64,000 nt of DNA. Origin: Levilactobacillus lanxiensis (GTDB taxonomy: Bacteria; Bacillota; Bacilli; Lactobacillales; Lactobacillaceae). The notes below the pieces were generated by a model that made no database searches, had not been told where the DNA came from, and saw only the letters and a program-made list of their open reading frames with translations. The position numbers and the translations under genes are program-made. Positions 11,735 through 61,367 of this stretch are shown here, one piece after another (position 1 is the first letter of the stretch; each line of letters begins with the position of its first letter). The stretch is taken from the NCBI RefSeq assembly GCF_016861655.1, contig NZ_BOLN01000002.1, positions 124,001 to 188,000 of the forward strand, given 5' to 3'.

Positions 11735-12055
11735 GACGCTTAATCGGGCTAAGCCAGTGTCAGCCGCAGGGCTGGGAAAACTGGGCCGGTCGTGGGAGTG
11801 ACCAGAGGCGAGCCAAGGTGACCAGCTGTGTCGGTGACCTTGGCTGGAGTTCTTTTCCAGCCTAGTTCACGGGACAACCTTTGAGACAGAACTTTGGCTC
11901 AAAGTTGAGGTGGAAGCCCGCTTCTCAGGCTGGAACCGGCCCCACAGCAGGGCTCCTTGAGCGCGCCGCCGGGAACGGACGCGACCAGGCCCAGTTTTCA
12001 CCAGCCCGGAGGCGCTGCAACAACACAAGTTTAACCCCAACCAGGATTAAGCGTT
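11735..12055 (+). repeat. Structured repeat copy R1, long class
   Basis: Outer arms ACGCTTAATC (from 11736) and GATTAAGCGT (to 12054) pair and include the stop codon of the carboxypeptidase at 12047. Inside are the 5' box CAGCCGCAGGG, a shell stem CTGGGAAAACTGGGCC with GGCCCAGTTTTCACCAG, and the 3' box CCGGAGGCGC. Between them lies the long-class domain: box GTGACCAGAGGCG, hairpin CCAAGGTGACC/GGTGACCTTGG with loop AGCTGTGTC, hairpin GGCTGGA/TCCAGCC, two bulged-A hairpins (AACCTTTGAG... and GGTGGAAGCC...), then CCCACAGCAG and GCCGCCGGGAACG. Confidence 0.85.
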
Positions 12056-13219
12056 CATGCTGCTGTAGCTGTAGGCTTGCTTCATCAGGGATTGCGTTTC
12101 CGTGAACTCGTTAATATCATGCAGCACCACGGTAATCACCCGGTGCTTACCAGCCTGTTGACCAGTCCCCACGAAGCAGTACCCAGCCAGCGGCGTGTAC
12201 CCGGTCTTCAAGCCATCAACGTTCAATGAAGCCTTGTAGTATTTCCGACCAGACAGCATGTTGTTGTAGTTGTAGCAAAGTTGGCCATCAACGGTCTTTG
12301 ACCCAACCGCGCCATCGGTCAAAATTTGCGGGTAGTCCTGGATCAGGTGCCGCGCAATCAGCGCCACATCCTTGGCGGAAACCATGTTGGCATTGGCTGT
12401 CCCGTAGGCGTAACCAAAGGCCTTCAAGTCACTGTTTTCCAGCCCGGAAGCCGAGACGAAACTAGCCTTACCCAGGTTCCAACTCTTGGCTTGTGCGTTC
12501 ATCTGTTGAATGAATTTAGCATTGCTGCCGGCAACCCATTCGCCCAAAGCAATTGCCGCGTTGTTGGAAGAATCCAACAGGGCCGCGTCATACAGCTCTC
12601 TAACGGTGTAGCTGTGCCCCGTTTGGAACAGGAAGCCACCGCAGGAGCTGCTCTTGCTCATAGCAATCAGGCCCTTGCTGCTGGTGTCGACGACCTGGTT
12701 CCAAGTAGACGCGTTGCCGTCAACCTTTTGTAAGACCAGGTACAGCGTCATCAATTTGGAAACGGACGCGATGGGCCGCGCCGTGTTGGCACTCTTGGAC
12801 CAAACGGCCTTGCCCGTCGTGTAGTCCATGGCAATGGCGTTCTTGGCGTATTTCAGACCAAATGGCGCCTTCCCCTTGGTCAGGTAACCGTGCCAGATCC
12901 AGCCCTTCACGGAACCAGACTTATTGGCCACATAATAGTAAATGCCCTTAGAATTACCGTGCTTCAAGGTCGCCTTCTGCGTGGCGTACCAAGTCGTGTT
13001 GGGGTAAGTCTTCAACGAAGCAATCTTGCGATTATGCGCCTGATTATAAATGGCCCCCGCCGTGCTCTTCTTGTGATAAGCCGTCTTGGTCATGGTCGCC
13101 GTCGACACAGTAGAATAAACGGCCGCATCGGCAGTCACCTGCAAGCTCAGCCCGGCACCCAACGTCAATACAAACATTAATGCCAGCACCAGCCACTTGG
13201 CTTTTCCTGATTTCATCAT
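12047..13219 (-). CDS. D-alanyl-D-alanine carboxypeptidase (PBP5/DacA family), SH3-like N-domain
   Basis: 390 residues with a signal peptide (WLVLALMFVLTLGAGLSLQV ... ADA). Residues about 35-115 form an SH3/GW-like wall-binding module ending WIWHGYL. The peptidase domain holds the three penicillin-binding motifs: SVSK (from ASVSKLMT), SNN (SSNNAAIALG) and KTG (DGLKTGYTPLAGYC). It trims the last D-Ala of peptidoglycan side chains outside the cell. No C-terminal amphipathic anchor is visible. The ATG at 13219 follows GAGGAGAGGA. It is a close paralogue of 13914-15086; its stop codon lies in repeat R1. Confidence 0.9.
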   Translation of the reverse strand: MMKSGKAKWLVLALMFVLTLGAGLSLQVTADAAVYSTVSTATMTKTAYHKKSTAGAIYNQAHNRKIASLKTYPNTTWYATQKATLKHGNSKGIYYYVANKSGSVKGWIWHGYLTKGKAPFGLKYAKNAIAMDYTTGKAVWSKSANTARPIASVSKLMTLYLVLQKVDGNASTWNQVVDTSSKGLIAMSKSSSCGGFLFQTGHSYTVRELYDAALLDSSNNAAIALGEWVAGSNAKFIQQMNAQAKSWNLGKASFVSASGLENSDLKAFGYAYGTANANMVSAKDVALIARHLIQDYPQILTDGAVGSKTVDGQLCYNYNNMLSGRKYYKASLNVDGLKTGYTPLAGYCFVGTGQQAGKHRVITVVLHDINEFTETQSLMKQAYSYSSMNA

Positions 13220-13411
13220 ATGTAGTCCTCTCCTCATTAAAAACTTTATATAAGTCACCCTAACACGACAAACGCCGTTCCCACAAGGATTCCAAGCCAA
13301 CTGTAACTTACTTGTTGGGGACGTAACTTTACCGTAATCCACAAGTTGGTGGCTAAATAACTAGGGTGGTTAACGATTAGGCCCCATCCAGCAGACACAG
13401 TTCAAGCCACG

Positions 13412-13451
13412 AAAAAGGCCCTACCAAGGAGAATTCTCGGTAGGACCTTTT
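13412..13451. terminator. Bidirectional terminator-like hairpin
   Basis: AAAAAGGCCCTACC pairs with GGTAGGACCTTTTC, one bulge, loop of about 12 nt. It stands between the first carboxypeptidase gene start and the repeat cluster and would insulate both. Confidence 0.65.
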
Positions 13452-13522
13452 CAAAACAATTTTATCTAAAGTATATGAATCTGACCAGCCACTACAACAC
13501 AACCCCAGCAGTCAACCACATT

Positions 13523-13650
13523 CACGAAGCAGAACGACCAATCCTGCGGGCTAAACCAGTGTCAGCCGCAGGGCTGGGAAAACTGGGTCGGTCGTGGGAG
13601 TGACCAGAGGCGAGCCAAGGTAACGGGAGCGGATACTCCTCCAGTAACCA
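13523..13650 (+). repeat. Structured repeat fragment R2 (5' part of a long-class copy)
   Basis: The first 55 bp (CACGAAGCAGAAC ... CAGCCGCAGGGCTGG) are nearly identical to 13660-13714 at the start of R3, forming direct repeats 137 bp apart. It continues with the long-class shell (GAAAACTGGGTCGGTCGTGGG) and the GTGACCAGAGGCGAGCCAAG box. It then ends in a short hairpin GGTAACGGGAG/CTCCTCCAGTAACC. The 3' half is absent. Confidence 0.75.
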
Positions 13651-13675
13651 GTCACCCCTCACGAAGCAGAACAAC

Positions 13676-13915
13676 CAATCCGGCGGGCTAAACCAGTGTC
13701 AGCCGCAGGGCTGGTGAAAATGGGCTCAGCCGTGGGAGTTGCCTTAGCGGGTTTCCCGCTTAGGCAACTGCTATCTTTGAGACGCGCTTCTCAGCGGCTC
13801 AAAGTAAGTCTGGAGACCGCTCTTCGGCTCCAGACGTGCGCCCACAGCGCCACGGCCCATTTTCACCAGCCCGGAGGCGCTGTCCAAAACACAAGTTTAA
13901 GCCCAAACCAGGATT
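13676..13915 (+). repeat. Structured repeat copy R3, short class, best-formed example
   Basis: Outer arms GCGGGCTAAAC and GTTTAAGCCC pair. Shell stem CTGGTGAAAATGGG (13711-13724) is the exact complement of CCCATTTTCACCAG (13856-13869); GCCGTGG then pairs with CCACGGC. Three hairpins follow: 13738-13768 (GTTGCCTTAGCGGG top), 13775-13804 (CTTTGAG/CTCAAAG) and 13809-13834 (TCTGGAG/CTCCAGA). The last two have the bulged A. Boxes are CAGCCGCAGGG (5') and CCGGAGGCGC (3'). The distal 3' arm includes the stop codon of the next gene. Confidence 0.88.
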
Positions 13916-15086
13916 AGTTGTTCATGCTGCTGAGGCGGTAGGCGTGATCCATCAAGGACTTTGTCTCCGTGAACTCGTTCTCATCATGCAACACAACGGT
14001 AATCACGCGTTGCTTGCCCTTCTTCTGACCGGTACCCACGAAGCAGTACCCAGCCAGCGGCGTGTAACCCGTCTTCAACCCATCGACCTTCAGTGAGGCG
14101 CGGTAATACTTCCGCCCCTTCAACAGGTTGTTGTAGTTGTGGCAGACCTGACCGTTGACCTTCATCGAGCCAATCTTGCCATCCTTTAAGATCCGCGGGT
14201 AGCTGGTGATCAGGTGCCGAGCGATGATGGCAACGTCCTTGGCGGAAACCTTGTTGGCGTTGGCCTTACCGTAGCCGTAACCGTACCGCCGCAGGTCGCT
14301 GTTTTCCAGACCGGAAGCCGAAACGAAGTGGGCCTTGCCCAATTTCCAGGACTTGGCTTGGGCGTTCATCTTCTTGATAAACTTGCCGTTACTGCCGCTG
14401 ACCCATTTTCCCAGCGCGATGGCGGAGTTGTTGGACGAATCCAAGAAGGCCGCGTAGTACAGTTGCTTGACGGTGTAGCTGTGATTCAATTTGAAATGGA
14501 AGCCGCCACAGTCGGCACTCCGGCTCATGGAAACCAAGCCACGGCTGGTAATCTTGACCTTGTGGTTCCAGTTGCTGGTCTTGCCATCAACCTTCTTCAG
14601 GGCCAGATATAACGTCATTAATTTAGAAACGGACGCGATGGGCCGCGCGGTGTTGGCGTTTTTGGACCAAACGACCTTCCCCGTCTTGGCGTTCATGGCA
14701 ACCGCCGCCTTGGCCTTAGTCAAGACGAATGGCGCCTTCCCCTTCTTCAGGTAGCCGTGCCAAACCCAGCCTTTCACACTATTTTTGCTGTTCTTGACGT
14801 AGAAATAAATGCCGGTCGACTTGCCATGCTTCAGCGTCGCCTGCTTCGTGGCGTACCACGTCGTGTGCGGGTGGGTCGTTAGGTTGCTGACCTTACGGGT
14901 GTGGGCCTTGTTGAAAATGGCCCCCTTGGCATGTTTCTTGTGGTAGGCCGTCTTCTTAATAGTTTTCGTGCTGACCGTTTTGTACGCTGAAGCAGCGTTG
15001 GCAGGCACGACAGCGCTGACGGTACCGCCGACCGTTAAGGCCACGGCAAACGCCATCAGGCCGCGTTTCATATGTAAATTCCTCAT
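13914..15086 (-). CDS. D-alanyl-D-alanine carboxypeptidase (PBP5/DacA family), paralogue 2
   Basis: 390 residues, signal peptide ending near ANAASA, SH3-like module ending VWHGYL, then SVSK, SNN (SSNNSAIALGKW) and KTG (DGLKTGYTPLAGYC). It is highly similar to the gene at 12047-13219 throughout, with many acidic or neutral positions replaced by Lys, giving a very basic protein. AGGAAGG precedes the ATG at 15086; an ATG at 15071 is an alternative. The two genes are a tandem duplication in the same orientation, each with a structured repeat at its stop codon. Confidence 0.9.
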   Translation of the reverse strand: MRNLHMKRGLMAFAVALTVGGTVSAVVPANAASAYKTVSTKTIKKTAYHKKHAKGAIFNKAHTRKVSNLTTHPHTTWYATKQATLKHGKSTGIYFYVKNSKNSVKGWVWHGYLKKGKAPFVLTKAKAAVAMNAKTGKVVWSKNANTARPIASVSKLMTLYLALKKVDGKTSNWNHKVKITSRGLVSMSRSADCGGFHFKLNHSYTVKQLYYAAFLDSSNNSAIALGKWVSGSNGKFIKKMNAQAKSWKLGKAHFVSASGLENSDLRRYGYGYGKANANKVSAKDVAIIARHLITSYPRILKDGKIGSMKVNGQVCHNYNNLLKGRKYYRASLKVDGLKTGYTPLAGYCFVGTGQKKGKQRVITVVLHDENEFTETKSLMDHAYRLSSMNN

Positions 15087-15311
15087 GAGTTAAATCCTTC
15101 CTATCGTATAATAATTAAGATAACCAACTATTAGAATAGCACTCTTGCCCCGCAACGGATAGCCCGATTAACCGCTTTAGACGTGAAATATCCCCGTCGT
15201 AACGAAACTGTAAAAAACGTTTCCATCCTGAATAAATCAACGACTAGGCACGATTATTTTGGGCAATGGTTGCATTTACCCAGCAAATTAGTTACGCTAG
15301 AGTCAATCACA

Positions 15312-15392
15312 TACGACTGGGGTGCCTCACGGCTGAGATCAAACCCATTGAACCTGCTCTGGTTAATACCAGCGAAGGGATGCGTACTTTTA
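15312..15392 (+). ncRNA. TPP riboswitch (THI element)
   Basis: The thi-box core is clear: GGGGTGCC at 15319-15326, GGCTGAGA (15331-15338), ACCCATTGAACCTG (15343-15356), then CTGGTTAATACCAGCG and AAGGGA up to 15380. It senses thiamine pyrophosphate. The terminator directly after it would be formed with ligand bound, shutting off ykoE and the genes behind it. A TTGCAT -35 candidate lies at 15267. Confidence 0.95.
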
Positions 15393-15405
15393 TGCTGTCA
15401 ATGAA

Positions 15406-15439
15406 CCCCACTAAGCACTTTCTTAGTGGGGATTTTTTT
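15406..15439 (+). terminator. TPP riboswitch expression-platform terminator
   Basis: CCCCACTAAG (15406-15415) and CTTAGTGGGG (15422-15431) form a perfect 10-bp stem followed by ATTTTTTT. It lies between the aptamer and the ykoE ribosome site. Confidence 0.93.
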
Positions 15440-15483
15440 CACAATGAACTCCCCTGTCAGAAAATTCTAGGAGGTATCGGGTT

Positions 15484-16044: not shown

Positions 16045-16063
16045 CGATTGATCTGGGTGCGTG

Positions 16064-16180
16064 TCATGCACCATACCGGGAAAAGAAAATTGGCCGGAAC
16101 GCTGGGGGCAGGACGGCTTAAGCCTGAGAAACGGTCTTAAGCCTCGGCTGAGCCAATTTTTTCCCTCACGGCTGCCATGG
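16064..16180 (-). repeat. Structured repeat copy R4, minimal one-hairpin class
   Basis: Read on the minus strand: box CAGCCGTGAGGG, stem AAAAATTGGCTCAGCC, one bulged-A hairpin GGCTTAAG/CTTAAGCC, CCCCAGCGTTCC, return strand GGCCAATTTTCTTTTCCC and box CCGGTATGGTG. It has the shell and a single internal hairpin. Its 3' end lies 20 bp from the ykoE stop codon, facing that gene. Confidence 0.75.
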
Positions 16181-16372: not shown

Positions 16373-16604
16373 CAACGTTGCTGGTCACCACCATGTCAGC
16401 CGTGAGGTCGGTGAAAATGGACTCAGCCGTGGGATTTTTCGAGTGACCTTCTCGGAAAATGGTGACTTTGAAACGCGTTTCTCAGCGGTTCAAAGCAAGC
16501 CTAAAGACCGCTTCTCAGGCTTTAGGCGTCCTCCCCACAGCGTCACGGTCCATTTTCACCGACCGGTAAGGCGCGTAAAAGGCGTACCCCAGCAACATCA
16601 TTGT
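16373..16604 (+). repeat. Structured repeat copy R5, short class with GAGG/GTAAGG boxes
   Basis: Outer arms GTTGCTGG (from 16377) and CCAGCAAC (to 16596) pair. Boxes are CAGCCGTGAGG and CCGGTAAGGCGC. Shell TCGGTGAAAATGG pairs with CCATTTTCACCGA, a compensated change relative to R3. Hairpins: GATTTTTCGAGTG..., TTTGAA/TTCAAA and CCTAAAG/CTTTAGG with bulged A. Its 3' end is 19 bp before the ykoD start codon. Confidence 0.82.
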
Positions 16605-19536: not shown

Positions 19537-19645
19537 ATACCAGGTTATGTGTTAAAGCTAGTGTCAACCGCAGGGCTGGTAAAAATAAGCTAGGCAGACC
19601 GGTATCAGTGACCAGAGACGGGACTGTTACAAACACCACCAAATA
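19537..19645 (+). repeat. Structured repeat fragment R6 (5' part of a long-class copy)
   Basis: Contains GTGTTAAAGCTAGTGT, box CAACCGCAGGG, CTGGTAAAAATAAGC and GTGACCAGAGACGGG, then breaks off. The next copy R7 starts again with the same order of motifs 107 bp later, so a truncated 5' end precedes a full copy exactly as in R2/R3. Confidence 0.7.
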
Positions 19646-19975
19646 CCAGTTCATGGGTTAAACCAGTGTTAGCCGCAGAGCTGGTGAAAATAGGCTCAGC
19701 TGACCGATATCAGTGACCAGAGGCGGGCCAAAGTGATCAGCTGTGTCGATGGTCTTAGTAGAGTGATTTTCTCTACTTAGAGCATGGGACAACCTTTGAG
19801 ACCGCCCTTCGGCTCAAAGTTGAGGTGGAAGCCCGCTTCTCGGGCTGGAACCGACCCCACAGCAGAGCGCTTTGAGCCCGCCGCCGGGAACGACCTATCG
19901 CGCCCACAGCGCCCCGACCTATTTTCACCAGCCCGGAGGCGCAAGCATACACTGTATTTAACCCATAAGCAACTG
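19646..19975 (+). repeat. Structured repeat copy R7, long class
   Basis: Outer arms ATGGGTTAAA (19653-19662) and TTTAACCCAT (19957-19966) are perfect complements. The shell is CTGGTGAAAATAGG with CCTATTTTCACCAG. The inserted domain holds GTGACCAGAGGCGGGCC, CAGCTGTGTCG, hairpin AGTAGAG/CTCTACT with TGATTTT loop, CTTTGAG/CTCAAAG and GGTGGAAGCCC hairpins with bulged A, CCCCACAGCAG, and GCCGCCGGGAACG. The short-class return strand CCCACAGCGCC follows, so both classes are nested here. Confidence 0.85.
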
Positions 19976-20410: not shown

Positions 20411-20467
20411 CGTTCCCGGCGGTGGGCTCAAAGTGGCCTGCTGTGGTCACTGACACAGATCACTCAG
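20411..20467 (-). repeat. Structured repeat remnant R8 (long class with internal deletion)
   Basis: On the plus strand it reads CGTTCCCGGCGGTGGGCTC, then CCTGCTGTGG joined directly to TCACTGACACAGATCAC. In R9 these two segments are about 200 bp apart. The join lies at the shared CTSTGG-like sequence, as expected for a deletion between short repeats. Confidence 0.6.
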
Positions 20468-22911: not shown

Positions 22912-23227
22912 TGTTTAGTCTTGGGGTTACCGTTATCAACGCCTCCGGGATGGTGAAAATAAGCGCGTCACAGCCGTTCCCGACGGCGGACTCAAACGGC
23001 CCTGCTGTGGGGCCCGGCTCCAGCCTGAGAAGCGGTCTTCCGCCTCGACTTGAAACCTCACCAAACCCGTGAGTTTCCAAGGTCGGCCCATGCTCTAAAC
23101 TGAGAAAATCACTCAGTTAAGACCATCGACACAGCTGGTCGGTTTGGCCCGCCTCTGGTCACTGACAGTGATCACGCATTTTCACCATCCCTGCGGCTAA
23201 CACCGGTTTAACCCGTAACTAAACGGT
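22912..23227 (-). repeat. Structured repeat copy R9, long class
   Basis: Outer arms GTTTAGT...GGGGTTA (left) and TTTAACCCGTAACTAAAC (right) pair. On the minus strand: TTAGCCGCAGGG, shell GATGGTGAAAATG with ATTTTCACCATC, GTGACCAGAGGCGGGCC, CAGCTGTGTCG, hairpin AACTGAG/CTCAGTT with TGATTTT loop, hairpin CTTGGAAACTCAC/GTGAGGTTTCAAG, a bulged-A hairpin, CCCCACAGCAGG and CCGCCGTCGGGAACG. Its 3' end points toward the start of the membrane-protein gene, 53 bp away. Confidence 0.84.
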
Positions 23228-24579: not shown

Positions 24580-25563
24580 TTAGGAGACGGCGGTGCTCAA
24601 GAATTGTTTGAGCTCGGCGCCCTGTAACCCAGCGCTCAGGCCCACTAATAGCTTGATTCGTGCTTTCTGCCCGTTCAGCCCCTGACACAGCATCAGCCCC
24701 ATCTTGCGCAGCTCAATGCCACCGCCCTCGTAGTCATAAATGTCCTCGGCGACGCCATTATAACACCGTGACACCAGAACTAAAGGAATCTGCCGGTCTA
24801 ACAGCCGTTGCACGGACGCCAGCGTTTTCGGTGGTAAATTCCCGGCACCCAGGCCTTCGATGACCACCCCGGCCGTCTCGTCATTGTCGAGAAAATCAAA
24901 CAGGCTCCCGTCCATCCCGGCGTAGGCCTTGATCAGGTAAACGTGGTCGATGACGTGGTCAATATTGCAGGTATCTTCCCGAATTAATTTCTGGAAATAA
25001 ACCGCGTGGTCCTTGGCTACGATCCCAATCGGGCCAAACGTTGGCGTCCGGAACGTGGCCACGTTAGTCGTGTGGGTCTTGGTCACGTAGCGGGCCGTGT
25101 GAATCTCATCGTTCATCACGACCATCACGCCATTTCCGCGTGAGGCGTCGTCTGCGGCCACTTCAATGGCGGATTGAAAGTTGTACAGGCCATCGGAACC
25201 AACCTCATTAGAGGAGCGCATAGCCCCCGTCACGACAACGGGAATCGTGCTGGGCAGGGTCAGGTCTAAGAAGTACGCCGTTTCCTCCAGCGTATCCGTC
25301 CCGTGGGTGATGACCACGCCATCAATCCCATCCTTCTCGGCCTGGTCGATGCGTTCTTTGATCTGTAGCATCTCCACCGGCGTCATGTGGGGGGATGGCA
25401 AATTAAACATTTCATCGGTAAACAATTCCACCCGGCCGGCCAAAATCGTTTCCTGTTGGGCAATCGGGTTCTGCGCGTTCGGCACAACCTCCCCCTGATC
25501 ATTTTGCGACATAGAAATCGTTCCACCCGTATGAATGGCTAAAATTTTCTTCACAGTTGTCAA
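24580..25563 (-). CDS. L-asparaginase, cytoplasmic type I
   Basis: 327 residues. The first active-site motif is IHTGGTISM near residue 11, and the second HGTDTLEETA near residue 85, carrying both catalytic threonines and the Asp. There is no signal peptide, so it is the cytoplasmic type I enzyme, converting asparagine to aspartate and ammonia. Start TTG at 25563 with GAAAGAAG; a GTG at 25554 is an alternative. It is probably co-transcribed with the four-repeat protein. Confidence 0.92.
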   Translation of the reverse strand: MTTVKKILAIHTGGTISMSQNDQGEVVPNAQNPIAQQETILAGRVELFTDEMFNLPSPHMTPVEMLQIKERIDQAEKDGIDGVVITHGTDTLEETAYFLDLTLPSTIPVVVTGAMRSSNEVGSDGLYNFQSAIEVAADDASRGNGVMVVMNDEIHTARYVTKTHTTNVATFRTPTFGPIGIVAKDHAVYFQKLIREDTCNIDHVIDHVYLIKAYAGMDGSLFDFLDNDETAGVVIEGLGAGNLPPKTLASVQRLLDRQIPLVLVSRCYNGVAEDIYDYEGGGIELRKMGLMLCQGLNGQKARIKLLVGLSAGLQGAELKQFLSTAVS

Positions 25564-25809
25564 CTTCTTTCAGTATTAGTTAATTTCATTGAACATTTTG
25601 AATTTCATTGGTTATCCCCGGAATAATGTTGCGGTAAGTCTAGTCTGATTACAACGACCATGAAAAATCTACCAGAAACTCGACCATCGTGGCGTAATAA
25701 TCTATTCGACAGGTTTAGCTAGCGTTCTTTCTCAACTCACCAAGCCATCAGATTACTTCAGCACAACACCATCTACCGCAGCCACCCAAACGACTGGTGG
25801 CAGAATAAT

Positions 25810-26057
25810 CCACTAGGCGGGTGGGCTAAACCAGTGTGAGCCTCCGGGCTGGTGAAAATGGGCTCAGCCGTGGGAGTTGCCTTAGCGGGTTCCCCGCTTA
25901 GGCAACTGCTATCTTTGAGACTCGGTCTATGAGGCTCAAAGTAAGTCTGGAGACCGCCTTTCGGCTCCAGACGTGCGCCCACAGCGTCACGGCCCATTTT
26001 CACCAGCCCGGAGGCGCTGCAGGGAACTAAAGATTCGAACCCAGCCCACCAAGTAGA
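25810..26057 (+). repeat. Structured repeat copy R10, short class with symmetric boxes
   Basis: Arms GGTGGGCT (left) and AGCCCACC (right) pair. The 5' box is GAGCCTCCGGGCTGG, the exact complement of the 3' CCAGCCCGGAGGC, making this the only copy with fully symmetric ends. Shell stem, GTTGCCTTAGCGGG hairpin, TTTGAG/CTCAAA and TCTGGAG/CTCCAGA hairpins follow as in R3. The 3' end is 66 bp before the start at 26123. Confidence 0.86.
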
Positions 26058-26122
26058 TTCGTTATCCACATTGTACCGTATTTGCGATAGAATTAAGTTA
26101 GAATTCAGAGAGGATGTTAAAA

Positions 26123-26302
26123 ATGTCCAAAAGAGAAGACGAAGAAAAAGGCTACATCCCAGGCGTCCACGTCCACCCCAAAAAGTACAGCTCATCCGGG
26201 GGGATTGCCGACTGGGGCCCGCTCCTGACTTGGTTTAACGGTCTAGTCAAATCTTTGTGGAACTGGCTCAAAGGACTCTGGTCGAAACATAAGGCCTCCT
26301 AA
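26123..26302 (+). CDS. Small Trp/Lys-rich protein, unknown
   Basis: 59 residues from the ATG at 26123, which has AGAGAGGA upstream; an ATG at 26114 is in frame but too near that site. The N-terminal half is polar (SKREDEEKGYIPGVHVHPKK), and the C-terminal half is an amphipathic, tryptophan-rich helix (FNGLVKSLWNWLKGLWSKHK). It could associate with membranes. No signal peptide, no recognised family. Confidence 0.55.
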   Translation: MSKREDEEKGYIPGVHVHPKKYSSSGGIADWGPLLTWFNGLVKSLWNWLKGLWSKHKAS

Positions 26303-26367
26303 ATCGGTATTGTTATTTTTATTTTTCAGTGGTAAAGTAAATGACATTCCATTAAAAAAATAAGTGA

Positions 26368-26438
26368 TTGCCTATATAATGCCAAGATAAGGTTGGCGAG
26401 TTTCTACCCAGAGCCGTAAACTCTGGACTATAAGCAAA
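26368..26438 (+). ncRNA. Purine riboswitch aptamer, guanine type
   Basis: P1 strands TTGCCTATA and TATAAGCAA enclose P2 (GCCAA/TTGGC, loop GATAAGG), the J2/3 core GTTTCTACC and P3 (CCAGAG/CTCTGG, loop CCGTAAA). The specificity base after P3 is C (26428), so it reads guanine, hypoxanthine or xanthine rather than adenine. It sits upstream of a xanthine-type permease with a terminator between. Confidence 0.94.
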
Positions 26439-26492
26439 TTGAGGACGAAACTCTTTTTGCCGATGAAAAGAGTTCGTCGGCGAGTTTTCAGT

Positions 26493-28339: not shown

Positions 28340-28556
28340 GGGACTAAATCAGTGTCAGCCGCAGGGCTGGTGAAAATGGGCTCAGCCGTGGGAGTTGCCT
28401 TAGCGGGTTTCCCGCTTAGGCAACTGCTATCTTTGAGACTCGCTTCTCAGAGGCTCAAAGTAAGTCTGAAGACCGCTTCTCAGGCTTCAGACGGGTGCCC
28501 ACAGCGCCACGGCCCATTTTCACCAGCCCGGAGGCCCAGTAAACAAACATTTAACC
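28340..28556 (+). repeat. Structured repeat copy R11, short class
   Basis: Box TCAGCCGCAGGG, shell CTGGTGAAAATGGG/CCCATTTTCACCAG, GCCGTGG/CCACGGC, hairpin GTTGCCTTAGCGGG, then TTTGAG/CTCAAA and GTCTGAAG/CTTCAGAC with bulged A, 3' box CCGGAGGC. In R3 the last stem is TCTGGAG/CTCCAGA, so two pairs have changed together. The 3' end is 28 bp before the ABC ATPase start. Confidence 0.86.
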
Positions 28557-28583
28557 GCAAAACAATTGATAGGAGAATTTGCC

Positions 28584-34028: not shown

Positions 34029-34064
34029 TATTAGATGTTATTAAGAATCTTCACCATAGTATTT

Positions 34065-34095
34065 AAGTCCGGGACAATAACAGTTCCGGACTTTT
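34065..34095 (+). terminator. Terminator after surface protein 1
   Basis: AAGTCCGG and CCGGACTT pair over a 13-nt loop, followed by TT and a T-rich stretch. Confidence 0.8.
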
Positions 34096-34177
34096 GATTA
34101 TTCAATTATTTAACTTTTAATCCATTAAATGTGCTAAAATCAAATTATAATAAAATCGGAATTTATGAGGTGATTTC

Positions 34178-43107: not shown

Positions 43108-43300
43108 AACCACGCCCGTTTAAAAACGGACGCTTGTGAGAACCATACCCCATAGCATGGTGACCACAATTTGCTTAGATACAGCGCTAGCCTACGAATA
43201 GGACTTATCCGCTAATTACCAAAGCCTTTTAGGTCCGCAGGTTGCCAGACGGACTCATTTTTTATAAGGCTACTAAACCCTTAGCTAATATATTTTTAGC
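43106..43300 (-). ncRNA. Candidate TnpB guide RNA (omega RNA)
   Basis: In this family the RNA covers the 3' end of tnpB and the adjoining element end, and its 3' flank outside the element acts as guide. Here the minus-strand segment after the tnpB stop has stable hairpins (GTCCG/CGGAC, then CCGTTT/AAACGG at the border). The flanking guide would derive from the potA relic. This is inference from element architecture. Confidence 0.5.
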
Positions 43301-44515: not shown

Positions 44516-44610
44516 GAACTGCCACCTCCTTTTGCTTGATGGTAGCATACCATATGAGTATACTGAACTCATAGTAAGTTGTCTTATAATAATATTTATG
44601 GAGGGTACAT

Positions 44611-45030
44611 ATGAGTAAGAATATTGGAGGGATGATCCACGAACGAGGTTATGTTTACAACTTTCATTTTCACTTGATCTGGGTCACCAAATACCGGCAC
44701 GAAGCATTTACAACGCCAAAGCTAGTCGCTGAAATGACCGGCATTCTAACGAAGATAGCCCGGCTGAACGAAGTGACCATTGAGCAAATGGAGGTAATGC
44801 CGGACCATATCTACTTACTCTTGAGCTTTAAGCCTAAATACGCGCCAACCAACGTTGTCAAGGCCTTCAAGGGCGGCTCGGCTCGCTTATTCTTTGAACT
44901 ACATCCAGAGATAAAGGCTCAAAAGTTCTGGGGTGGACATCTTTGGTCTCCTAATTACTTCATGAGTACCCTTGGTGATATGAGCAAGACAACCGTAGAA
45001 AACTACATTGCTAATCAGCGAAAGGTCTAG
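44611..45030 (+). CDS. tnpA: TnpA, Y1 HUH transposase of the IS605 element
   Basis: 139 residues. The fold is clear: HFHLIWVTKYRHEAF, the metal-binding strand MPDHIYLLLSF and the nucleophile Tyr in TTVENYIANQ. The HUH motif normally reads H-x-H, but here the second His is Tyr (codon TAC at about 44811). Metal binding, and so activity, may be impaired. TGGAGGG precedes the ATG. It is divergent from tnpB. Confidence 0.9.
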   Translation: MSKNIGGMIHERGYVYNFHFHLIWVTKYRHEAFTTPKLVAEMTGILTKIARLNEVTIEQMEVMPDHIYLLLSFKPKYAPTNVVKAFKGGSARLFFELHPEIKAQKFWGGHLWSPNYFMSTLGDMSKTTVENYIANQRKV

Positions 45031-45914: not shown

Positions 45915-46200
45915 CCCCATCTTGTTAACCGGTGAAAATCATCAGCCCACGCAACAGGTAAGAAAATTGCTAAACACTTGTTAGAAAAGTAATGAGATCA
46001 CTAGTAAATAGCAAAATCAATTTTAGCCGAAGGGGGCCAGAGATGTAGCCAGTCGTGTCGACACTGTTAAACGGTCTGTCCCACGTCATGAAGACGCGTG
46101 CCCCTCGCGGCTTCATGGCGAGGTCACAGACCGCACCTCAGGCTGTGACCGTTTCGCATTGCTGGCGGAATCCCTGGCAACCGCAGTGCAATCAGCCAAA
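45915..46200 (+). repeat. Diverged structured element in the potA leader
   Basis: Motif order resembles the long-class repeat: CCGGTGAAAATCATCAGCC, CCAGAGATGTAGCCAG, GTCGTGTCG, CTGTCCCACG, then two bulged-A hairpins CATGAAG/CTTCATG and GGTCACAG/CTGTGACC joined by GCGAGG. These hairpins keep the bulged A and the CGC...GCG or CC...GG tops while their stems differ from all other copies. The end boxes are not conserved. It lies directly before potA. Confidence 0.55.
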
Positions 46201-55435: not shown

Positions 55436-55639
55436 TTACTTCCACTGCCAGAGGTCAGCCTTCATGTTAGTCGCAATGATTTTGGCCAGTAGATCAACAA
55501 ACTGATCGGGCATGTAGGCGGTCGTATCCAGTGTCGTTGCTTGGTCATTGACCTTGGTGATGGTCAGGCCTTGATGTTCAAGAGTCAGCCCATACTTGGG
55601 GGCAATCTGGCAGAGCCGTTCGACTTGTTCTTCGTTCAC
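55436..55639 (-). CDS. Small protein, unknown
   Basis: 67 residues (MNEEQVERLCQIAPKYGLTL ... ADLWQWK), soluble. GTG at 55639 follows GGAGG at 7-nt spacing. Repeat R12 points toward its start 68 bp upstream. No known family. Confidence 0.65.
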   Translation of the reverse strand: MNEEQVERLCQIAPKYGLTLEHQGLTITKVNDQATTLDTTAYMPDQFVDLLAKIIATNMKADLWQWK

Positions 55640-55706
55640 GGGAGGTCCTCCTTGTCTAGTGTCTTTAAGACGAGCTTAGCCAATCCCCCCAGCCACGTCA
55701 AGTTGG

Positions 55707-55924
55707 TCCTGTCTTTGTTGTCGCCTCCGGGATGGTAAAAACTGGGCCGGAACGCGGTGGGCAGGACGCTGGAAGCCAAAGGACGGTCTTCCAGCTCGCT
55801 TTGAGCCTCTAAGGAACGAGTCTCAAAGTCGCCATTTACTGGGCTTAATCGCCCAGTAAATCCCACGGCTGAGCCCATTTTTACCATCCCTGCGGCTGAC
55901 ACTCGCCCAACCCCAACTTGACCG
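55707..55924 (-). repeat. Structured repeat copy R12, short class
   Basis: Outer arms GTCAAGTTGG (55707-55716) and CCAACTTGAC (55913-55922) are perfect 10-bp complements. On the minus strand: TCAGCCGCAGGG, GATGGTAAAAATGGG with its complement on the return strand, GCCGTGGG, hairpin ATTTACTGGGC/GCCCAGTAAAT, CTTTGAG hairpin, GCTGGAAG hairpin, box CCGGAGGC. Confidence 0.86.
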
Positions 55925-56016: not shown

Positions 56017-56130
56017 CAAAAAGTTCAATTTTAAATACCAATCATTGTCAGCTACCAGGCTTAGAAACGATACCGTCAAGAACAAACCTGACAACTGTCG
56101 TGGAGCAATTGGCAACACAACTGGTTCTCA

Positions 56131-56338
56131 CAACCAACGTGTAAGCCGTGAGGGCGGCGAAAATAACTTCAGCCGTGGGAATGCCCTTAGTAGCGCTTTT
56201 AGCTGCTTAGGGCATTGGCGTCTTTGAGACGTGCTCTTACGGCTCAAAGCGAGGGCGAAGACCGCTCTTTGGCTTCGCCCGTCCGCCCCAGCGTTCCAGG
56301 TTATTTTCGCCGCCCGGTAAGGCGCTGACAACGATCAG
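56131..56338 (+). repeat. Structured repeat copy R13, short class with GAGG/GTAAGG boxes
   Basis: Box TAAGCCGTGAGG, shell GGCGGCGAAAATAAC with GTTATTTTCGCCGCC (perfect, but different from R3 at several pairs), hairpin ATGCCCTTAG/CTTAGGGCAT type, TTTGAG/CTCAAA with bulged A, GGGCGAAG/CTTCGCCC with bulged A, box CCGGTAAGGCGC. It ends 2 bp from the stop codon of the HPr-like gene. Confidence 0.84.
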
Positions 56339-56603: not shown

Positions 56604-56623
56604 CTGTAATCACCTCTGAATTA

Positions 56624-56652: not shown

Positions 56653-56756
56653 TACCTTTTACCAATTTTCACAAAGTCACTGACCGAACCCTTCTCGCAA
56701 CCACTGCTCTGGGAAAAATCACATAGCGCTTTGACCTATGACTTTCCGAACACGCG

Positions 56757-56785
56757 TTCAAACCCAGGGCAAAGTGTGGTATGAT
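56757..56785 (+). promoter_or_regulatory. Promoter of the helicase operon
   Basis: TTCAAA (56757-56762), 17-bp spacer, TATGAT (56780-56785), 28 bp before the chosen start. Confidence 0.55.
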
Positions 56786-56812
56786 ATTGCCAGAAATGGA
56801 GGCGATGGCGGC

Positions 56813-59176
56813 ATGACCACCAAACTTGGCGTCCGGGAATTAGTGGAGTTCACGCTCCGTACCGGCGACCTCAGTGCCACTTCCGGCAGCCAGAATACGG
56901 CCTTACTGGGCGCACAGATCCACCGTCGTCTACAGAAACAACGCGGTGAAAATTATCAAAAGGAATACTACCTCGACAAAGAATTGACGCTAAACGGCGA
57001 CGACTACCTGCTTCACGGCCGGGCCGACGGGGTCACTTTGACTGAAGACGCCGCCAGCATCGAGGAAATCAAGACGTCTGAAACCGTCTTTGATCAGCTG
57101 AGCGACAACACCCTGACCCTCTACTGGGCGCAGGTGAAAATTTATGCCTACCTTTTAATGGAAAAAGAATCTGATTTAGATCAGGTCACGTTGACCCTGA
57201 CCTACTTTCAGACCAACACGGAAACGACGACCCAAACGGACCAAACCATCACGCGTGAAGAGGCCGCAGCCTTCTTTGATAAGGTCATCACGGAATACAT
57301 TACCTGGCTTAAATTTCGCTCGGACCTGCGCGAGCGGCGAGACCCCACTATTCAGGCGCTGACCTTCCCATTTGGCCAGTACCGGCCGGGCCAACGCGAG
57401 CTCGCCGTGGCCGTCTACAAGACCGTTCTCACCAGCAAACGCCTTTTCGCCGAGGCCCCAACTGGGACCGGAAAGACCATCTCCACGCTTTTTCCCACCA
57501 TCAAGGCGATTGGCGAGGGCGTGATTCAACGCATCTTCTACCTGACCGCCAAGCAGAGCACGCGGCGGGTGGCCGAGGAAGCCGTCGACCTGATGGCCAG
57601 TCAGGGACTGAAGCTCAAGAGCATCACCCTGACGGCCAAGGACAAGATCAAGTTTCCTGAGGAGGCCGACCTCCAGCCCGATGAGAACCCTTATATGCTG
57701 GGCTATTACGACCGATTAAAGCCGGCCTTGCTGGACCTCATTCAACACAATGACCAGCTCACCCGCCCGGTCATCGAAGAATACGCGCGCAAACACACGC
57801 TGGACCCGTTTGAATTTCAGCTGGACGCGAGCCTCTTTTGTGATATCATCATCGGCGATTACAACTACCTCTTCGACCCGCAAGTTCACCTCCAACGCTT
57901 CTTTGCGACCGAGGACCCCGACAACTTTTTCCTAATCGACGAAGCCCACAACCTGGTCAGTCGGTCCCGCGATATGTACTCGGCGGAAATCAATAGTCAG
58001 CCGCTGGACCGCTTGATTGAAACCAGTCGGGACCTGGCCCAAGCCACGCCCAAACTGCGACGGCGGCTCCAAGACCTGCGTGCCACTTTTAGTGATATCG
58101 CCCAACCATTGATCGACGACGGCCAGACCGACAGCACCTTTTTGATGCCGCCGGAAAACTTCGACCACGACCTCAGCCGCTTGGTGGAGGCTATTCACGA
58201 CTGGCTAGTTGACCAGCCACAGACGCCCTTCACCCAGGCCATCCTCGACTACTACTTCGCCGCCATCAGCTACCAGCGCATCGGCGAGTACTACGACGAC
58301 ACCTACCGCATGCGCCTCGAGCTGGACAACGGCAACATCATGCTCAAGGAATTGTGCCTGGACCCCAGCGCCTTTCTCGCCGACAGTCTCGCGCTGGGCC
58401 ACGGCGCCGTGCTCTTCTCGGCCACCCTGTCGCCCATGGACTATTACCAAAACGTGTTGGGCGGCGACCAGGACAGTCTGGCCTACCAACTCGACTCCCC
58501 GTTTGAACCCGCGCACCAAGAAATCCTGGTCACGACCTACATTCAAACGACCTACAAACAGCGTAACGCCAATCTGGCCAACATCTTACTGGCGATTAAA
58601 AACTTGATTGACGGCAAGACCGGCAACTACCTGATTTTTTTGCCTTCCTATAGTTATCTACTTGACGTCAGCCAGGCCTTTCATCTGGCCTACCCGCACG
58701 TCAAAACCGTCTGCCAGGAGTCCCAAATGGCCGAGGCCAACCGGACGGCCTTCCTCGCCAGCTTCACGGCCAACCCCAGTGAAACACTGGTCGGCTTTGC
58801 CCTGCTCGGTGGCATTTTCTCCGAGGGTATCGACTTGAAAGCCGACCGCTTGATTGGCGTCGGCATTGTTAGCGTTGGCCTGCCCGGACTCAACCCGGAG
58901 ACCAATCTGCTGCGCGACTACTTTGACGAGCGTTCTCATCGTGGCTTTGCCTACGCCTACCAGCTGCCCGGTCTGAATAACGTGTTCCAGGCGGCTGGTC
59001 GTCTGATTCGTGGGTCGAAGGACGTGGGGATTATTTTACTGATGGATCAACGATTCGCCAGCCCCCGCTACACCAACCTGTATCCGCGGCACTGGCAACA
59101 CTTCCACCGAATTTATCGGCCCGAACAGCTCAGTCCCGCGATTGAAAATTTCTGGCATCAGGAGGTGCCCCAATGA
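56813..59176 (+). CDS. DinG/XPD-like helicase fused to an N-terminal PD-(D/E)XK (Cas4-like) nuclease domain
   Basis: 787 residues. N-terminal 190 residues carry a nuclease core: GAQIHRRL, LLHGRADGV, IEEIKTSE and WAQVKIYAYLL (the D...ExK and QxxxY pattern). The helicase follows: Walker A EAPTGTGKTI, DEAH box LIDEAHNL, and C-terminal motifs LFSATLSP, GGIFSEGIDL and QAAGRLIRG. The Cys residues that hold the 4Fe-4S cluster in XPD/DinG relatives are missing (KDKIKF and PDENPYMLGYYDR where cysteines are usual). GGAGG lies 10 nt before the ATG at 56813. First gene of a three-gene coupled operon; probably DNA repair or defence (inference). Confidence 0.85.
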   Translation: MTTKLGVRELVEFTLRTGDLSATSGSQNTALLGAQIHRRLQKQRGENYQKEYYLDKELTLNGDDYLLHGRADGVTLTEDAASIEEIKTSETVFDQLSDNTLTLYWAQVKIYAYLLMEKESDLDQVTLTLTYFQTNTETTTQTDQTITREEAAAFFDKVITEYITWLKFRSDLRERRDPTIQALTFPFGQYRPGQRELAVAVYKTVLTSKRLFAEAPTGTGKTISTLFPTIKAIGEGVIQRIFYLTAKQSTRRVAEEAVDLMASQGLKLKSITLTAKDKIKFPEEADLQPDENPYMLGYYDRLKPALLDLIQHNDQLTRPVIEEYARKHTLDPFEFQLDASLFCDIIIGDYNYLFDPQVHLQRFFATEDPDNFFLIDEAHNLVSRSRDMYSAEINSQPLDRLIETSRDLAQATPKLRRRLQDLRATFSDIAQPLIDDGQTDSTFLMPPENFDHDLSRLVEAIHDWLVDQPQTPFTQAILDYYFAAISYQRIGEYYDDTYRMRLELDNGNIMLKELCLDPSAFLADSLALGHGAVLFSATLSPMDYYQNVLGGDQDSLAYQLDSPFEPAHQEILVTTYIQTTYKQRNANLANILLAIKNLIDGKTGNYLIFLPSYSYLLDVSQAFHLAYPHVKTVCQESQMAEANRTAFLASFTANPSETLVGFALLGGIFSEGIDLKADRLIGVGIVSVGLPGLNPETNLLRDYFDERSHRGFAYAYQLPGLNNVFQAAGRLIRGSKDVGIILLMDQRFASPRYTNLYPRHWQHFHRIYRPEQLSPAIENFWHQEVPQ

Positions 59177-59865
59177 AAACCAAACTCACTTTAGAAATGG
59201 AAGCGACACTCTACGCGTACTGCCGAGAAGCCGGCGCGTTTGCGGTCGAAGAGGTCACCATGCCCGACGACGCTGGGATTGTGGACACCCTGAGCTACCA
59301 GGAGATGCCCGATAAATCCATCGAGTGGCGCTGCTACGAGCTGAAGGTCACCAAGAGTGATTTTCACTCGAAGGCCAAACTCTCCTTCGTCGGCCACTAC
59401 AACTACTTCGTCCTGCCGCTCAAGCTCTACCAAACGGTTCAAGACGAGATTCCGCCCCGCATCGGCGTCCTGATTTACCGACCCTTTGATGCGGAAATGC
59501 TGGCGACCGCGACCGAAGCGCCCAGCACCCCGGGCTACCTGACCGTTGCTCGGCCGCCCCGCCATCAGGACCTGCAAGTGCCTGCCTCGGAGCTGACGAC
59601 CCGATTCATCGCTTCGCAGGCACGGGAGGTCGGCAAGGCCAAGCAGATGGCGACCGGTCTCAAACAGTATTCAACTGACCGGCTCTACCAGGAATTGAAG
59701 AAACGCCACCAACATTATGATATCTACGATCCAGATGCCAACTTCTATGATCAGTTCATCGAGGACACCCAATCGACGGCGGTCACGGCCCTGCAGAGTG
59801 AAATCGATGCCCTGAACCTGGAACGCCACGACCTCCAGCAACAGCTAAAGGAGCAGCGGCCATGA
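59173..59865 (+). CDS. PD-(D/E)XK-fold nuclease-like protein (MmcB-type)
   Basis: 230 residues. The N-terminal half has the restriction-fold pattern: EEVTMPDDAGIVDTLSYQ followed by EWRCYELKVTKSDFHS, that is Asp...ExK. GHYNYFVLPLKL continues the core. The C-terminal part is a Gln/Glu-rich coiled coil (TALQSEIDALNLERHDLQQQ). It overlaps the helicase by 4 bp and the next gene by 4 bp. The catalytic residues look complete, so it may cut DNA in concert with the helicase. Family name tentative. Confidence 0.65.
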   Translation: MKTKLTLEMEATLYAYCREAGAFAVEEVTMPDDAGIVDTLSYQEMPDKSIEWRCYELKVTKSDFHSKAKLSFVGHYNYFVLPLKLYQTVQDEIPPRIGVLIYRPFDAEMLATATEAPSTPGYLTVARPPRHQDLQVPASELTTRFIASQAREVGKAKQMATGLKQYSTDRLYQELKKRHQHYDIYDPDANFYDQFIEDTQSTAVTALQSEIDALNLERHDLQQQLKEQRP

Positions 59866-60776
59866 TTTATTTTCCTTATTTTCGGGGGCGACAGTACGAC
59901 CTTTTGGCCCTGAAAAACATTGCCCAACAACACATTCTGCCGCCTAACATTATTCCGATTATCGAACCCGTCCGGGACATCCGAGCCCTGCCCCAAACCG
60001 TGGCGGCCTTCGTCGAACACGACCAACCACTAGTGGTGATTGCCAATCCAACCGTCAGCGACTACGCCTTGACCAAACAAAAGCTCCACGACTGGCGGCC
60101 CTACGCGGACAATCCGCAATTGATTGTCGGCCACATTCTGACGCCTACCGTCATCCCCGCTAGCCTCCAACCAGCCGCAAATCACCGAACGTTGTTGGTC
60201 GGTCGCCAATACGATGAACTGGTTGCCGCCCAACATGCTGGTTGGCTCAACGACCCGAGTTATTTGCTAGTGCCGCCCGAGGCGCGGATTCGCCAGCTCA
60301 TCACCCGGCCCACCGTCAGTCTCTTTGACCATGCCTGGCTGCCGGAACACGAGCGCAGTTACGCCGATATCACCGACGGCTTCTTCAGTGATGACTGGGT
60401 GCTCGCCACCCTCGACGGCTATCACGGCGTCAGTGACTACACGATTGGTGGCGCGCACTACAGCGAGCACGGCTATCCAGCTCGCGCCGTCACCCTGCAC
60501 CTCACCTACTTTCACGGCGACCAGCTCCGCATCCACCGCTTCGTTTCCGATGACCGCGAAGACTTCCGCCATCCCAAGGAGAAGTTTTTCCAAGCAGTCG
60601 CGAAACTGGCCGCCTGGTTGCCAGACCACCCGGACGTCCAAACGCCGGCAGCCCTGGCTCTGGCGGACTACCATACGTCGCAACATTTTCCGGGACTGGG
60701 CGTGGTAAAGCGCCTCAGCCTGGAGCACCACCTACAGACGATGGCCGCTTACTTCAAACTGCATTATCCAGAATGA
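59862..60776 (+). CDS. sce7725-family protein
   Basis: 304 residues. The start MIYFPYFRGRQYDLLALKNI with IIPIIEPVRD, then VVIANPTVSDYAL and SLFDHAWL fit the sce7725 family, which is usually paired with the nuclease-like sce7726. Here its partner is a different PD-(D/E)XK protein. No function is established. AAAGGAG in the end of the previous gene is its ribosome site. It ends the operon; repeat R14 begins 18 bp after the stop. Confidence 0.7.
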   Translation: MIYFPYFRGRQYDLLALKNIAQQHILPPNIIPIIEPVRDIRALPQTVAAFVEHDQPLVVIANPTVSDYALTKQKLHDWRPYADNPQLIVGHILTPTVIPASLQPAANHRTLLVGRQYDELVAAQHAGWLNDPSYLLVPPEARIRQLITRPTVSLFDHAWLPEHERSYADITDGFFSDDWVLATLDGYHGVSDYTIGGAHYSEHGYPARAVTLHLTYFHGDQLRIHRFVSDDREDFRHPKEKFFQAVAKLAAWLPDHPDVQTPAALALADYHTSQHFPGLGVVKRLSLEHHLQTMAAYFKLHYPE

Positions 60777-60793
60777 GATTGGTACGTGTCTTT

Positions 60794-60985
60794 CGTTCCC
60801 GGCGGCGGATTCAACCTGTTCTGCTGTGGGGAACGGTTCCGGCCTGTGAAGCGGTCCTACACCTCGCCTGAAAGCCTGGAAAGCCACCAGTCTCCCAGGT
60901 CGCCCCGTGCTCTAAACTGAGAAATTCACTCAGTTAAGACCACCGACACAGCTGCCCAGGTTGATCCGCCTCTGGTCACTCACAC
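60794..60985 (-). repeat. Structured repeat copy R14, long-class domain without shell
   Basis: On the minus strand: GTGACCAGAGGCGGATCAA, CAGCTGTGTCGGTGGTC, hairpin AACTGAG/CTCAGTT with TGAATTT loop, TAGAGCACGGGGCGACC, further hairpins, CCCCACAGCAG and CCGCCGCCGGGAACG. The CTGGTGAAAATGG shell of other copies is missing at both ends. Confidence 0.78.
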
Positions 60986-61098
60986 TAGTCATCTCATTCT
61001 TGATTTGCGAAATCAAACCAAGTCACGACTGGTTAACGTCACTGGCTGCTGGAGAAATTTTCTCACAACACGTCACTAGATTGCGTGGCACAATCGCT

Positions 61099-61367
61099 AT
61101 CCGCCGCAGGACTGGTGAAAATTAGCCACGCTGCTCCATGTTAGTGACCAGAGGCAGATCAACTTTCCCAGCTGTGTCGGTGGTCTTGGCTGGGGAGATT
61201 TTTCCCAGCCTAGCCCACGGGGCAACCTTTGAGACCGCTCCTTAGGCTCAAAGTTGAGGTGGAAGCCCGCCCTTCGGCTGGAACCGACCCCATAGCAGGG
61301 AAGGTTGAATCTGCCGTCGGGAACGACACTCTCCACACGGCAGAATTGCACTAGTCCGGAGGCGCAG
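61099..61367 (+). repeat. Structured repeat copy R15, long class with decayed shell
   Basis: Box GCCGCAGGACTGGTGAAAAT at the left and TTGCACTAGTCCGGAGGCGC at the right; the shell pairs only partly. The core is intact: GTGACCAGAGGCAGATC, CAGCTGTGTCGGTGGTC, hairpin GGCTGGG/CCCAGCC, CTTTGAG/CTCAAAG, GGTGGAAGCCC hairpin, CCCCATAGCAGGG and GCCGTCGGGAACG. It faces R14 in divergent orientation with 113 bp between. Confidence 0.82.

Follow-up and report, generated by a model that had tools for sequence, protein, structure and literature searches.

A dispersed, folded intergenic element with two core types in Levilactobacillus lanxiensis and other Lactobacillaceae

Small, non-autonomous, structured repeats between genes are a known kind of bacterial sequence, and ERIC, Correia and bcr1 are short non-coding miniature inverted-repeat transposable elements (MITEs) with terminal inverted repeats. 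Here we analyze a 64-kb stretch of the Levilactobacillus lanxiensis genome (positions 124001-188000 of its contig, in an assembly of 3.03 Mb and 24 contigs; hereafter the window) that carries many copies of a dispersed, folded intergenic element. Like the bacterial MITE RUP, as portrayed in a portion of PMC2229807, the element is short, non-coding and furnished with terminal inverted repeats. It differs from bacterial MITEs in being GC-rich, in lying near genes with a polarity and in showing no direct target duplication. The same portion describes YPAL (168 bp) and RU-2 of Yersinia, which are likewise intergenic, not A+T-rich and equipped with internal inverted repeats. YPAL targets span or adjoin dyad symmetry and are duplicated over 3-26 bp (PMC2229807), whereas around our element we detected no direct duplication and the copied flank is in inverted orientation; exchange of cores, which occurs here, goes unmentioned for YPAL in that portion of the source.

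The REP (repetitive extragenic palindromic) repeats share with our element a high copy number, palindromic form and extragenic position. In the excerpted text of PMC3733652 they measure 20-40 bp and mostly carry a GTAG or CGTC tag, as opposed to multi-arm folds of 180-290 nt here. Covarying RNA-like folds comparable to ours are known from Lactobacillales (Lacto-rpoB, Lacto-usp, Lacto-int and the L17 downstream element; PMC2864571, part of the text). Unlike those candidates, the copies described here are dispersed by the hundred and have no Rfam model match, although Lacto-int has no Rfam number in the table of that paper, so a search of Rfam may not cover it. Finally, in fold-back inverted duplications a hairpin primes synthesis that yields an inverted copy, much as in the process we propose below; in the sections consulted these are rearrangements of yeast and cancer genomes, not a dispersed bacterial repeat (PMC7467729, PMC10622511). 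We did not find a description of the element family in Rfam or, judged by titles and the beginnings of abstracts, in the literature searched, which leaves subscription journals mostly outside; the family, its gene-tail flanks and the exchange of cores at a fixed address were thus not found described.

The repeat comprises two related cores, type A (about 205 nt) and type B (about 290 nt), in a common shell. Most copies have a terminal inverted repeat (GGGCTAAAC/GTTTAACCC) plus a shell stem, with the layout, read from the sequence, GGGCTAAACCAGTGTCAGCCGCAGGGCTGGTGAAAATGGGC ... GCCCATTTTCACCAGCCCGGAGGC, then about 15 nt, then GTTTAACCC. In the type A core, three hairpins branch from a junction. 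The type B core has the same layout plus an inner stem (GGCGGGCCAAG/CTTGAGCCCGCC), and part of the B cores lack the shell. The pairs AGCCGCAGGG/CCGGAGGC and AGCCGTGAGG/CCGGTAAGGC look like two forms of one internal loop at the base of the shell. The initial annotation had described a single element with constant parts; the shared shell stands, but there are two core types rather than one, and the copy at 60794-60982 has no shell. None of five tested short open reading frames (ORFs) that overlap copies has a Pfam family at E<=0.01.

Covariance models were built for type A (R1, from 44 copies) and type B (R2, from 46 copies), with rows chosen on model score, length and mutual identity below 0.88, a selection that favours copies that fit. 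Named loci are labelled L (L001-L030 are from the L. lanxiensis genome), and genomes of the genus G (G012 is L. wangkuiensis). The consensus fold of these alignments, each drawn from several species, has 57 pairs in type A, 40 of them with changes on both sides, and 55 pairs in type B, 35 of them with such changes; 98.0% (A) and 97.4% (B) of the cells in these positions are paired. Covariation scores are 0.443 (A) and 0.368 (B) against 0.159 and 0.174 in shuffles, and none of 500 shuffles reaches the observed value on any of five measures. Sliding the partners leaves only 0.052-0.091. Cells with G.T outnumber those with A.C by 105:17 (A) and 158:19 (B), and by 49:16 and 61:18 once wobble-rich pairs are removed. 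A double-stranded cruciform would be symmetric in this respect, and therefore the folding strand is the plus strand as written here, whether in the form of RNA or of single-stranded DNA. The folded strand is a closed multi-arm structure in which the outer shell stem leads to the three-hairpin junction, with the extra inner stem in type B. Minimum free energies (MFE) of two copies with their flanks lie at z-scores of -9.6 and -8.4 relative to shuffles.

In total, the window contains 11 complete cores (six A and five B) and at least five remnants. CTGGTGAAAATGG occurs there 18 times at up to two mismatches, compared with a mean of 2.34 and a maximum of 5 in 100 shuffles. The A elements score 166-207 bits under R1 and the B elements 191-203 bits under R2; the related layouts are reflected in scores of 53-70 bits for the window A copies under R2. 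Thus sequence comparison, shuffles and covariance models all confirm repeats at the places where they had first been proposed, and their description as dispersed, folded and present in both orientations between genes is supported, the fold by the covariation and its controls.

Levilactobacillus includes species used in food fermentation, and the element is common across the genus. Copy numbers are lower bounds, with 150 candidates scored per model in the L. lanxiensis genome, 75 per genome in the scan of the genus, and 13 per genome, under stricter filters, in the scans of family and class. All 150 candidates pass for each model in L. lanxiensis, the weakest at 112 bits (A) and 169 bits (B). 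Because cross-scores between the two types in the window fall below 70 bits, well under the weakest passing candidates, we take these as at least 300 distinct copies. R1 matches were found in 33 of 35 genus genomes and were absent from two (G228 and G235, 2.3-2.4 Mb), which make a natural comparison for studying what the element does. Within the sampled family, 54 of 201 genomes and 11 of 40 genera match (L. lanxiensis and its genus included), and 46 of these genomes belong to other genera; none of 199 genomes sampled from the class outside the family does. Two matches outside the genus were inspected, and both span the full model with the end motifs preserved. At E<=1e-6, copy numbers in ten chosen genomes from seven genera range from 3 to 84. 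The covariance-model search of the genome and its relatives, which the initial annotation had called for, therefore places the element in many other genomes.

The exact 20-base shell pattern is present in at least 87 stretches of named genomes, almost only from six Levilactobacillus species (among the matches listed: L. wangkuiensis, L. mulengensis, L. cerevisiae, L. humaensis, L. lindianensis and L. hammesii). Also among the matches listed are one uncultured Lactobacillus metagenome-assembled genome and single off-family matches in Vogesella, Omnitrophota and Clostridiales. A plasmid collection gave no match to the single query used (window 13600-13900). At gathering scores, Rfam 15 recognized only riboswitches and tRNAs in the window and in eight loci, two of them from other genera, and at E<=5 nothing in the window fell over the elements. 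This agrees with the earlier impression that no named family fits.

The copies have a polarity toward genes. Gene contexts were taken from mechanical ORFs of at least 110 codons (at least 90 for counts of neighbour pairs and of loci outside the genus). Across 73 full A copies, taken from the window and the named loci, the median distance between the end of the model and the neighbouring gene is 36 nt on the 3' side, compared with 438 nt on the 5' side. The 3'-side gene is the nearer one in 67/73 A copies, 32/34 B copies with a shell and 31/40 without. A converging 3' gene, with the element right behind its stop codon, is present in 42/73 A copies, at a median distance of 27-28 nt; medians are 103-121 nt where the gene starts at the element. 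In these 42/73 cases, roughly half of the total, the element is antisense to its 3'-side gene, an argument against an ordinary cis-acting mRNA element. Pairs of elements less than 600 nt apart are back-to-back in 44 cases, point the same way in 25 and are never tail-to-tail.

Beyond the element, the flanks form inverted repeats that are specific to each locus. We denote the flank on the 5' side X and that on the 3' side, the gene side, D. Among 105 A copies, the inverted repeat between X and D scores 8.66 on average for a copy's own pair and 5.89 for swapped pairs, a mean reached by 0/2000 permutations even though some rows are mutual orthologs, which raises the swapped scores. About a quarter of the copies (28/105) exceed the 99th percentile of swapped pairs. 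The effect is gone 60-100 nt further out (5.76 vs 5.79). Direct repeats under the same test score 5.93 for both own and swapped pairs, with 973 and 949 of 2000 permutations reaching the observed mean, and so no target-site duplication is detected. Tested copy by copy, the inverted repeat is significant in 18/73 cases (13/42 with a converging gene and 5/31 with a starting gene). Among the 13 significant convergent cases, 11 have most of D inside coding sequence; X thus repeats the final ~50 nt of the gene upside down, mostly including the stop codon, and we take D as the native flank and X as the copy.

Site I2 (13343-13913) allows filled and element-free states to be compared. The window has an X-D score of 17.0 there (0/200 shuffles) and L. 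wangkuiensis a weak 12.5 (8/200). Four element-free congeners (G001, G008, G015 and G010) have no complement of D, with scores of 9-9.5 at shuffle level, and two congeners with other elements score 11.0 (21/200) and 10.0 (62/200). A pre-existing palindrome as the target of insertion was considered and rejected, as it is absent at I2 from the four element-free species. At I4 and I8 even the filled sites are at shuffle level with the D chosen. A C/A-rich single-stranded leader upstream was likewise considered and set aside, the skew being limited to ~60-100 nt next to the shell.

At a given address, the core can change. Seven spacers of the window were compared with L. wangkuiensis. Four of them have another core there (L. 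lanxiensis/L. wangkuiensis: I1 B/A, I2 half copy plus A/B, I4 half copy plus B/A, I8 A/B), two have the same core (I3 A/A, I6 B/B), and I7 gave a weak partial match. Core length differs by more than 40 nt at 9/20 sites (10/24 comparisons of L. lanxiensis with L. wangkuiensis or L. mulengensis, those kept having both shells found and matching D flanks). For A/A pairs, a paralog in the same genome is closer than the ortholog in 9/13 and the ortholog is the best match in 4/13; the loci L001-L030 were picked by similarity to one type A copy, so best-paralog values lean high, and the rank of the ortholog among the copies of the other species is the less biased measure. Presence of the element itself varies between species at I2, I3, I4, I6 and I8.

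Older copies appear to be stratified on one side of the present ones, with 3'-truncated pieces almost exclusively on the far (5') side of a full copy. A second 5' shell lies upstream in 40/162 A-model matches. Most of these 40 read, by eye, as a segment that we call U-X, an older copy truncated at its 3' end, U-X again and a full copy; at least three (L088, L062 and L114) are not of this tandem kind, and the U-X repeat was judged by eye. A lone 5' shell followed by another 5' shell outnumbers the mirror case by 39:6 at E<=1, 26:1 at E<=0.01 and 6:1 at E<=1e-4.

On balance, the evidence points to an element that moves, or at least recombines, and has a constrained folded strand; the initial annotation had left the choice open between an RNA family and a palindromic mobile element. 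We prefer one specific reading, on which we judge the chances evenly balanced: an undescribed element, dispersed in Lactobacillaceae, that is structured, non-autonomous and mobile or recombining, with fold-back synthesis at insertion. We infer that DNA synthesis, in making or repairing a copy, would start at the gene side (D) and pass through the element. Folding back on the shell palindrome, it would then copy the gene tail again, leaving X as the reverse complement of D on the far side. If a break or stall later occurred within the element, repair from another copy, entered via the 3' shell and left via the 5' shell, would exchange the core. Ectopic recombination resolved out of register might produce the series of U-X, truncated old copy, U-X and new copy. 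More tentatively, and with the balance somewhat against it, the element could represent a new class of bacterial mobile cassette, characterized by a fold in a single strand, docking to genes by the element's own 3' end, a self-primed fold-back flank, a fixed address, repeated replacement of the core by others of the family and truncated predecessors on one side.

Several observations weigh against fold-back synthesis by a mobile or recombining element. There is no constant enzyme partner: RVT_1 occurs in 10/35 and Y1_Tnp in 23/35 genus genomes (L. lanxiensis included in both counts), and both were rejected as partner enzymes for being inconsistent across carriers. The 42/73 convergent genes are not clearly above half, and outside the genus the polarity is weaker (16/24, a 25th locus lacking a gene on one side). 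X-D complementarity is undetectable in 77/105 copies and not significant outside the genus (24 loci, 193/2000 permutations), and the evidence from empty sites on X and D rests on one site, I2. X and D do not co-evolve: scores within species (14.75 and 14.10) equal those across sister species (14.85 and 14.54). Maintained X-D pairing is therefore not supported, and the pairing looks like a footprint rather than a preserved structure. Lone 5' and 3' shells differ in number only at E<=0.01 (29 and 14), being balanced under both the looser cut-off of E<=1 (71 and 68) and the stricter one of E<=1e-4 (7 and 9), so that the asymmetry of the remnants rests on lone shells that have a second one next to them. 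No case of a fresh insertion came to light, filled sites of the L. lanxiensis genome being mostly filled in the sister species. Covariation, moreover, cannot tell RNA from single-stranded DNA.

The strongest rival, compatible with mobility though itself unlikely, is a functional RNA spread by duplication (a plus-strand trans-acting or antisense RNA, a 3'-end stabilizer or a terminator) in which selection keeps the fold. Covariation far beyond controls, the strand asymmetry, conserved unpaired motifs, nearness to gene ends and the MFE z-scores of two copies (-9.6, -8.4) would all be expected of such an RNA, but a mobile element can keep its fold as well. Orientation to both neighbours is mixed (28 --, 16 ++, 15 -+, 14 +-), presence varies at the five sites named above, and the two core types replace each other. 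Judged by eye in the 11-30 kb part of the window, a promoter-like site on the strand of the element and no more than 300 nt upstream of it accompanies only one of seven full elements, and the six on the plus strand all lack a terminator-like site within 100 nt downstream.

The remaining alternatives each invoke an enzyme. Mobilization of a REP-like element by a Y1 nuclease of IS200/IS605 type acting on single-stranded DNA would account for a fold in one strand, hundreds of copies and positions near gene ends, and Y1_Tnp is found in the 23 genus genomes already mentioned (RAYT and IS200/IS605 TnpA not being told apart). We consider it quite unlikely: L. wangkuiensis has many copies but no Y1_Tnp match at E<=1e-5, and the elements, at 180-290 nt, are far above the 20-40 nt of a REP hairpin and have GTAG at a frequency of only 0.11 per element. 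A classical MITE moved in trans by a DDE transposase is disfavoured and very unlikely. It would explain the terminal inverted repeat (GGGCTAAAC...GTTTAACCC), the high copy number, the location between genes and the lack of visible coding capacity; direct target duplications are not seen, however, GC content is 0.594 across 105 type A copies rather than A+T-rich, and a strand-specific fold with polarity would be unexpected. Also, 0/366 five-prime shell matches in the fetched loci pair with a 3' shell at a distance of at least 330 nt, so those loci contain no autonomous version. Least likely of all, in our estimation, is a retroelement, an RNA copied by reverse transcriptase that is target-primed at D and snaps back at the end of the cDNA, even though polarity and a plus-strand fold suit it and X as the reverse complement of D would follow naturally from snap-back. 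RVT_1 is present in only 10/35 genus genomes against 33/35 for R1, and remnants beside full copies lack the 3' end rather than the 5' end, whereas incomplete reverse transcription usually loses the opposite end.

The individual copies of the window sit between recognizable genes, and only a few short mechanical ORFs overlap them (e.g., 25773-26195, 55636-55902 and 56128-56331, all on the minus strand). Some minus-strand model matches, such as 25840-26021, are palindromic shadows of plus-strand copies and not extra copies. Two tandem related genes of the S11 peptidase family occupy 12047-15086, with an element behind each stop codon. Behind the one at 12047-13342 (minus strand, Peptidase_S11), a type B copy with a shell is docked at 11746-12037 on the plus strand (core 11795-11977, 194.3 bits under R2); in L. 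wangkuiensis and L. mulengensis the site is occupied by type A. Its X (11730-11745, ATGACGCTTAATC) matches the reverse complement of D (ATGAACGCTTAATCC) with a score of 13.5, and D (12038-12060) covers the 3' coding end of the peptidase gene. At 13548-13624 follows a half copy (plus strand) with a 5' shell and the start of a B core but no 3' part, visible directly in the sequence, which we read as an older copy; L. wangkuiensis has a complete type B there. The next copy, a full type A at 13685-13904 on the plus strand (206.8 bits under R1 at 13696-13878; ends from the sequence), has its X at 13654-13681 (ACCCCTCACGAAGCAGAACAACCAATCC against the reverse complement of D, ACCGCCTCAGCAGCATGAACAACTAATCC; score 17.0, 0/200 shuffles), an inverted copy of the tail of the gene at 13914-15086 (minus strand). 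The D flank (13910-13939) lies mostly within the 3' coding end of that gene (0.90 of the segment is coding).

Further along, a thiamine pyrophosphate (TPP) riboswitch was identified at 15308-15397 (Rfam), followed by a decayed type A-like remnant at 16071-16178 (minus strand, R1 49.0 bits). The plus-strand type A copy at 16393-16571 (R1 166.5 bits) has the GTGA/GGTAA variant of the internal loop; both sister species have type A here too, in each case with the ortholog as best match. A second half copy with a 5' shell and B start, also seen directly in the sequence, is located at approximately 19549-19651 (plus strand). It adjoins a plus-strand type B copy with a shell at approximately 19655-19960 (R2 203.4 bits at 19710-19892), a site that has type A in L. 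wangkuiensis and is an element-free spacer of 42-61 nt in 15 other congeners. On the minus strand are a type B core fragment at 20411-20453 (R2 19.0 bits) and a type B copy with a shell at approximately 22930-23215 (R2 193.6 bits at 22975-23165). The plus-strand type A copy at approximately 25823-26030 (R1 193.9 bits at 25834-26015) lies between the gene at 24580-25563 (minus strand) and a purine riboswitch at 26352-26450 (Rfam), upstream of the latter. Another plus-strand type A copy, at approximately 28341-28550 (R1 192.4 bits at 28352-28535), is directly upstream of the gene at 28566-29480, and L. wangkuiensis has type B at this site.

At 32229-36025 lie two related genes in tandem that have MucBP and DUF5776 domains and share a 300 nt stretch that is 80% alike. 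An IS605-type pair is encoded at 43262-45030, consisting of the Y1 transposase tnpA (44611-45030, PF01797) and, on the other strand, a TnpB/Cas12f-like protein (43262-44572, PF07282, PF01385). At 46020-46189 (plus strand) there is a divergent relative or remnant of the element (R1 44.2 bits, R2 34.3 bits). Two type A copies stand back-to-back at 55723-55902 (minus strand, R1 179.3 bits) and 56139-56322 (plus strand, R1 184.7 bits). The cluster at 56738-60776 includes the gene for a sce7725 family protein (59862-60776, NF033831) and a gene (56738-59176) whose product resembles DinG/YoaA helicases but scores below their curated cut-offs. The type B core without a shell (60794-60982, minus strand, R2 194.6 bits) lies 18 nt behind the plus-strand gene at 59862-60776, back-to-back with a plus-strand type B copy with a shell at approximately 61090-61370 (R2 191.5 bits at 61141-61325), which lies beside the gene at 61430-62536 (minus strand). 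Weak sub-threshold Rfam matches (greA and Thr_leader, E 0.02-0.4) at 61380-61518 (minus strand) and 63163-63284 are probably chance hairpins or terminators.

In summary, the initial annotation was broadly right, and the polarity, the inverted gene-tail copies, the exchange of cores and the stratified older copies go beyond it. A single 3-Mb genome has at least 300 copies of a covarying fold, and related folds occur in 11 of the 40 genera sampled from the family (Levilactobacillus included), yet they lie outside Rfam, and the R1 and R2 models could be offered to that database. With no direct duplication, with gene tails copied in inverted form and with cores that change at fixed addresses, the element departs from the usual models of transposition. 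The element is thus a concrete, testable case of how small structured repeats spread and are renewed in these bacteria without a visible transposase.

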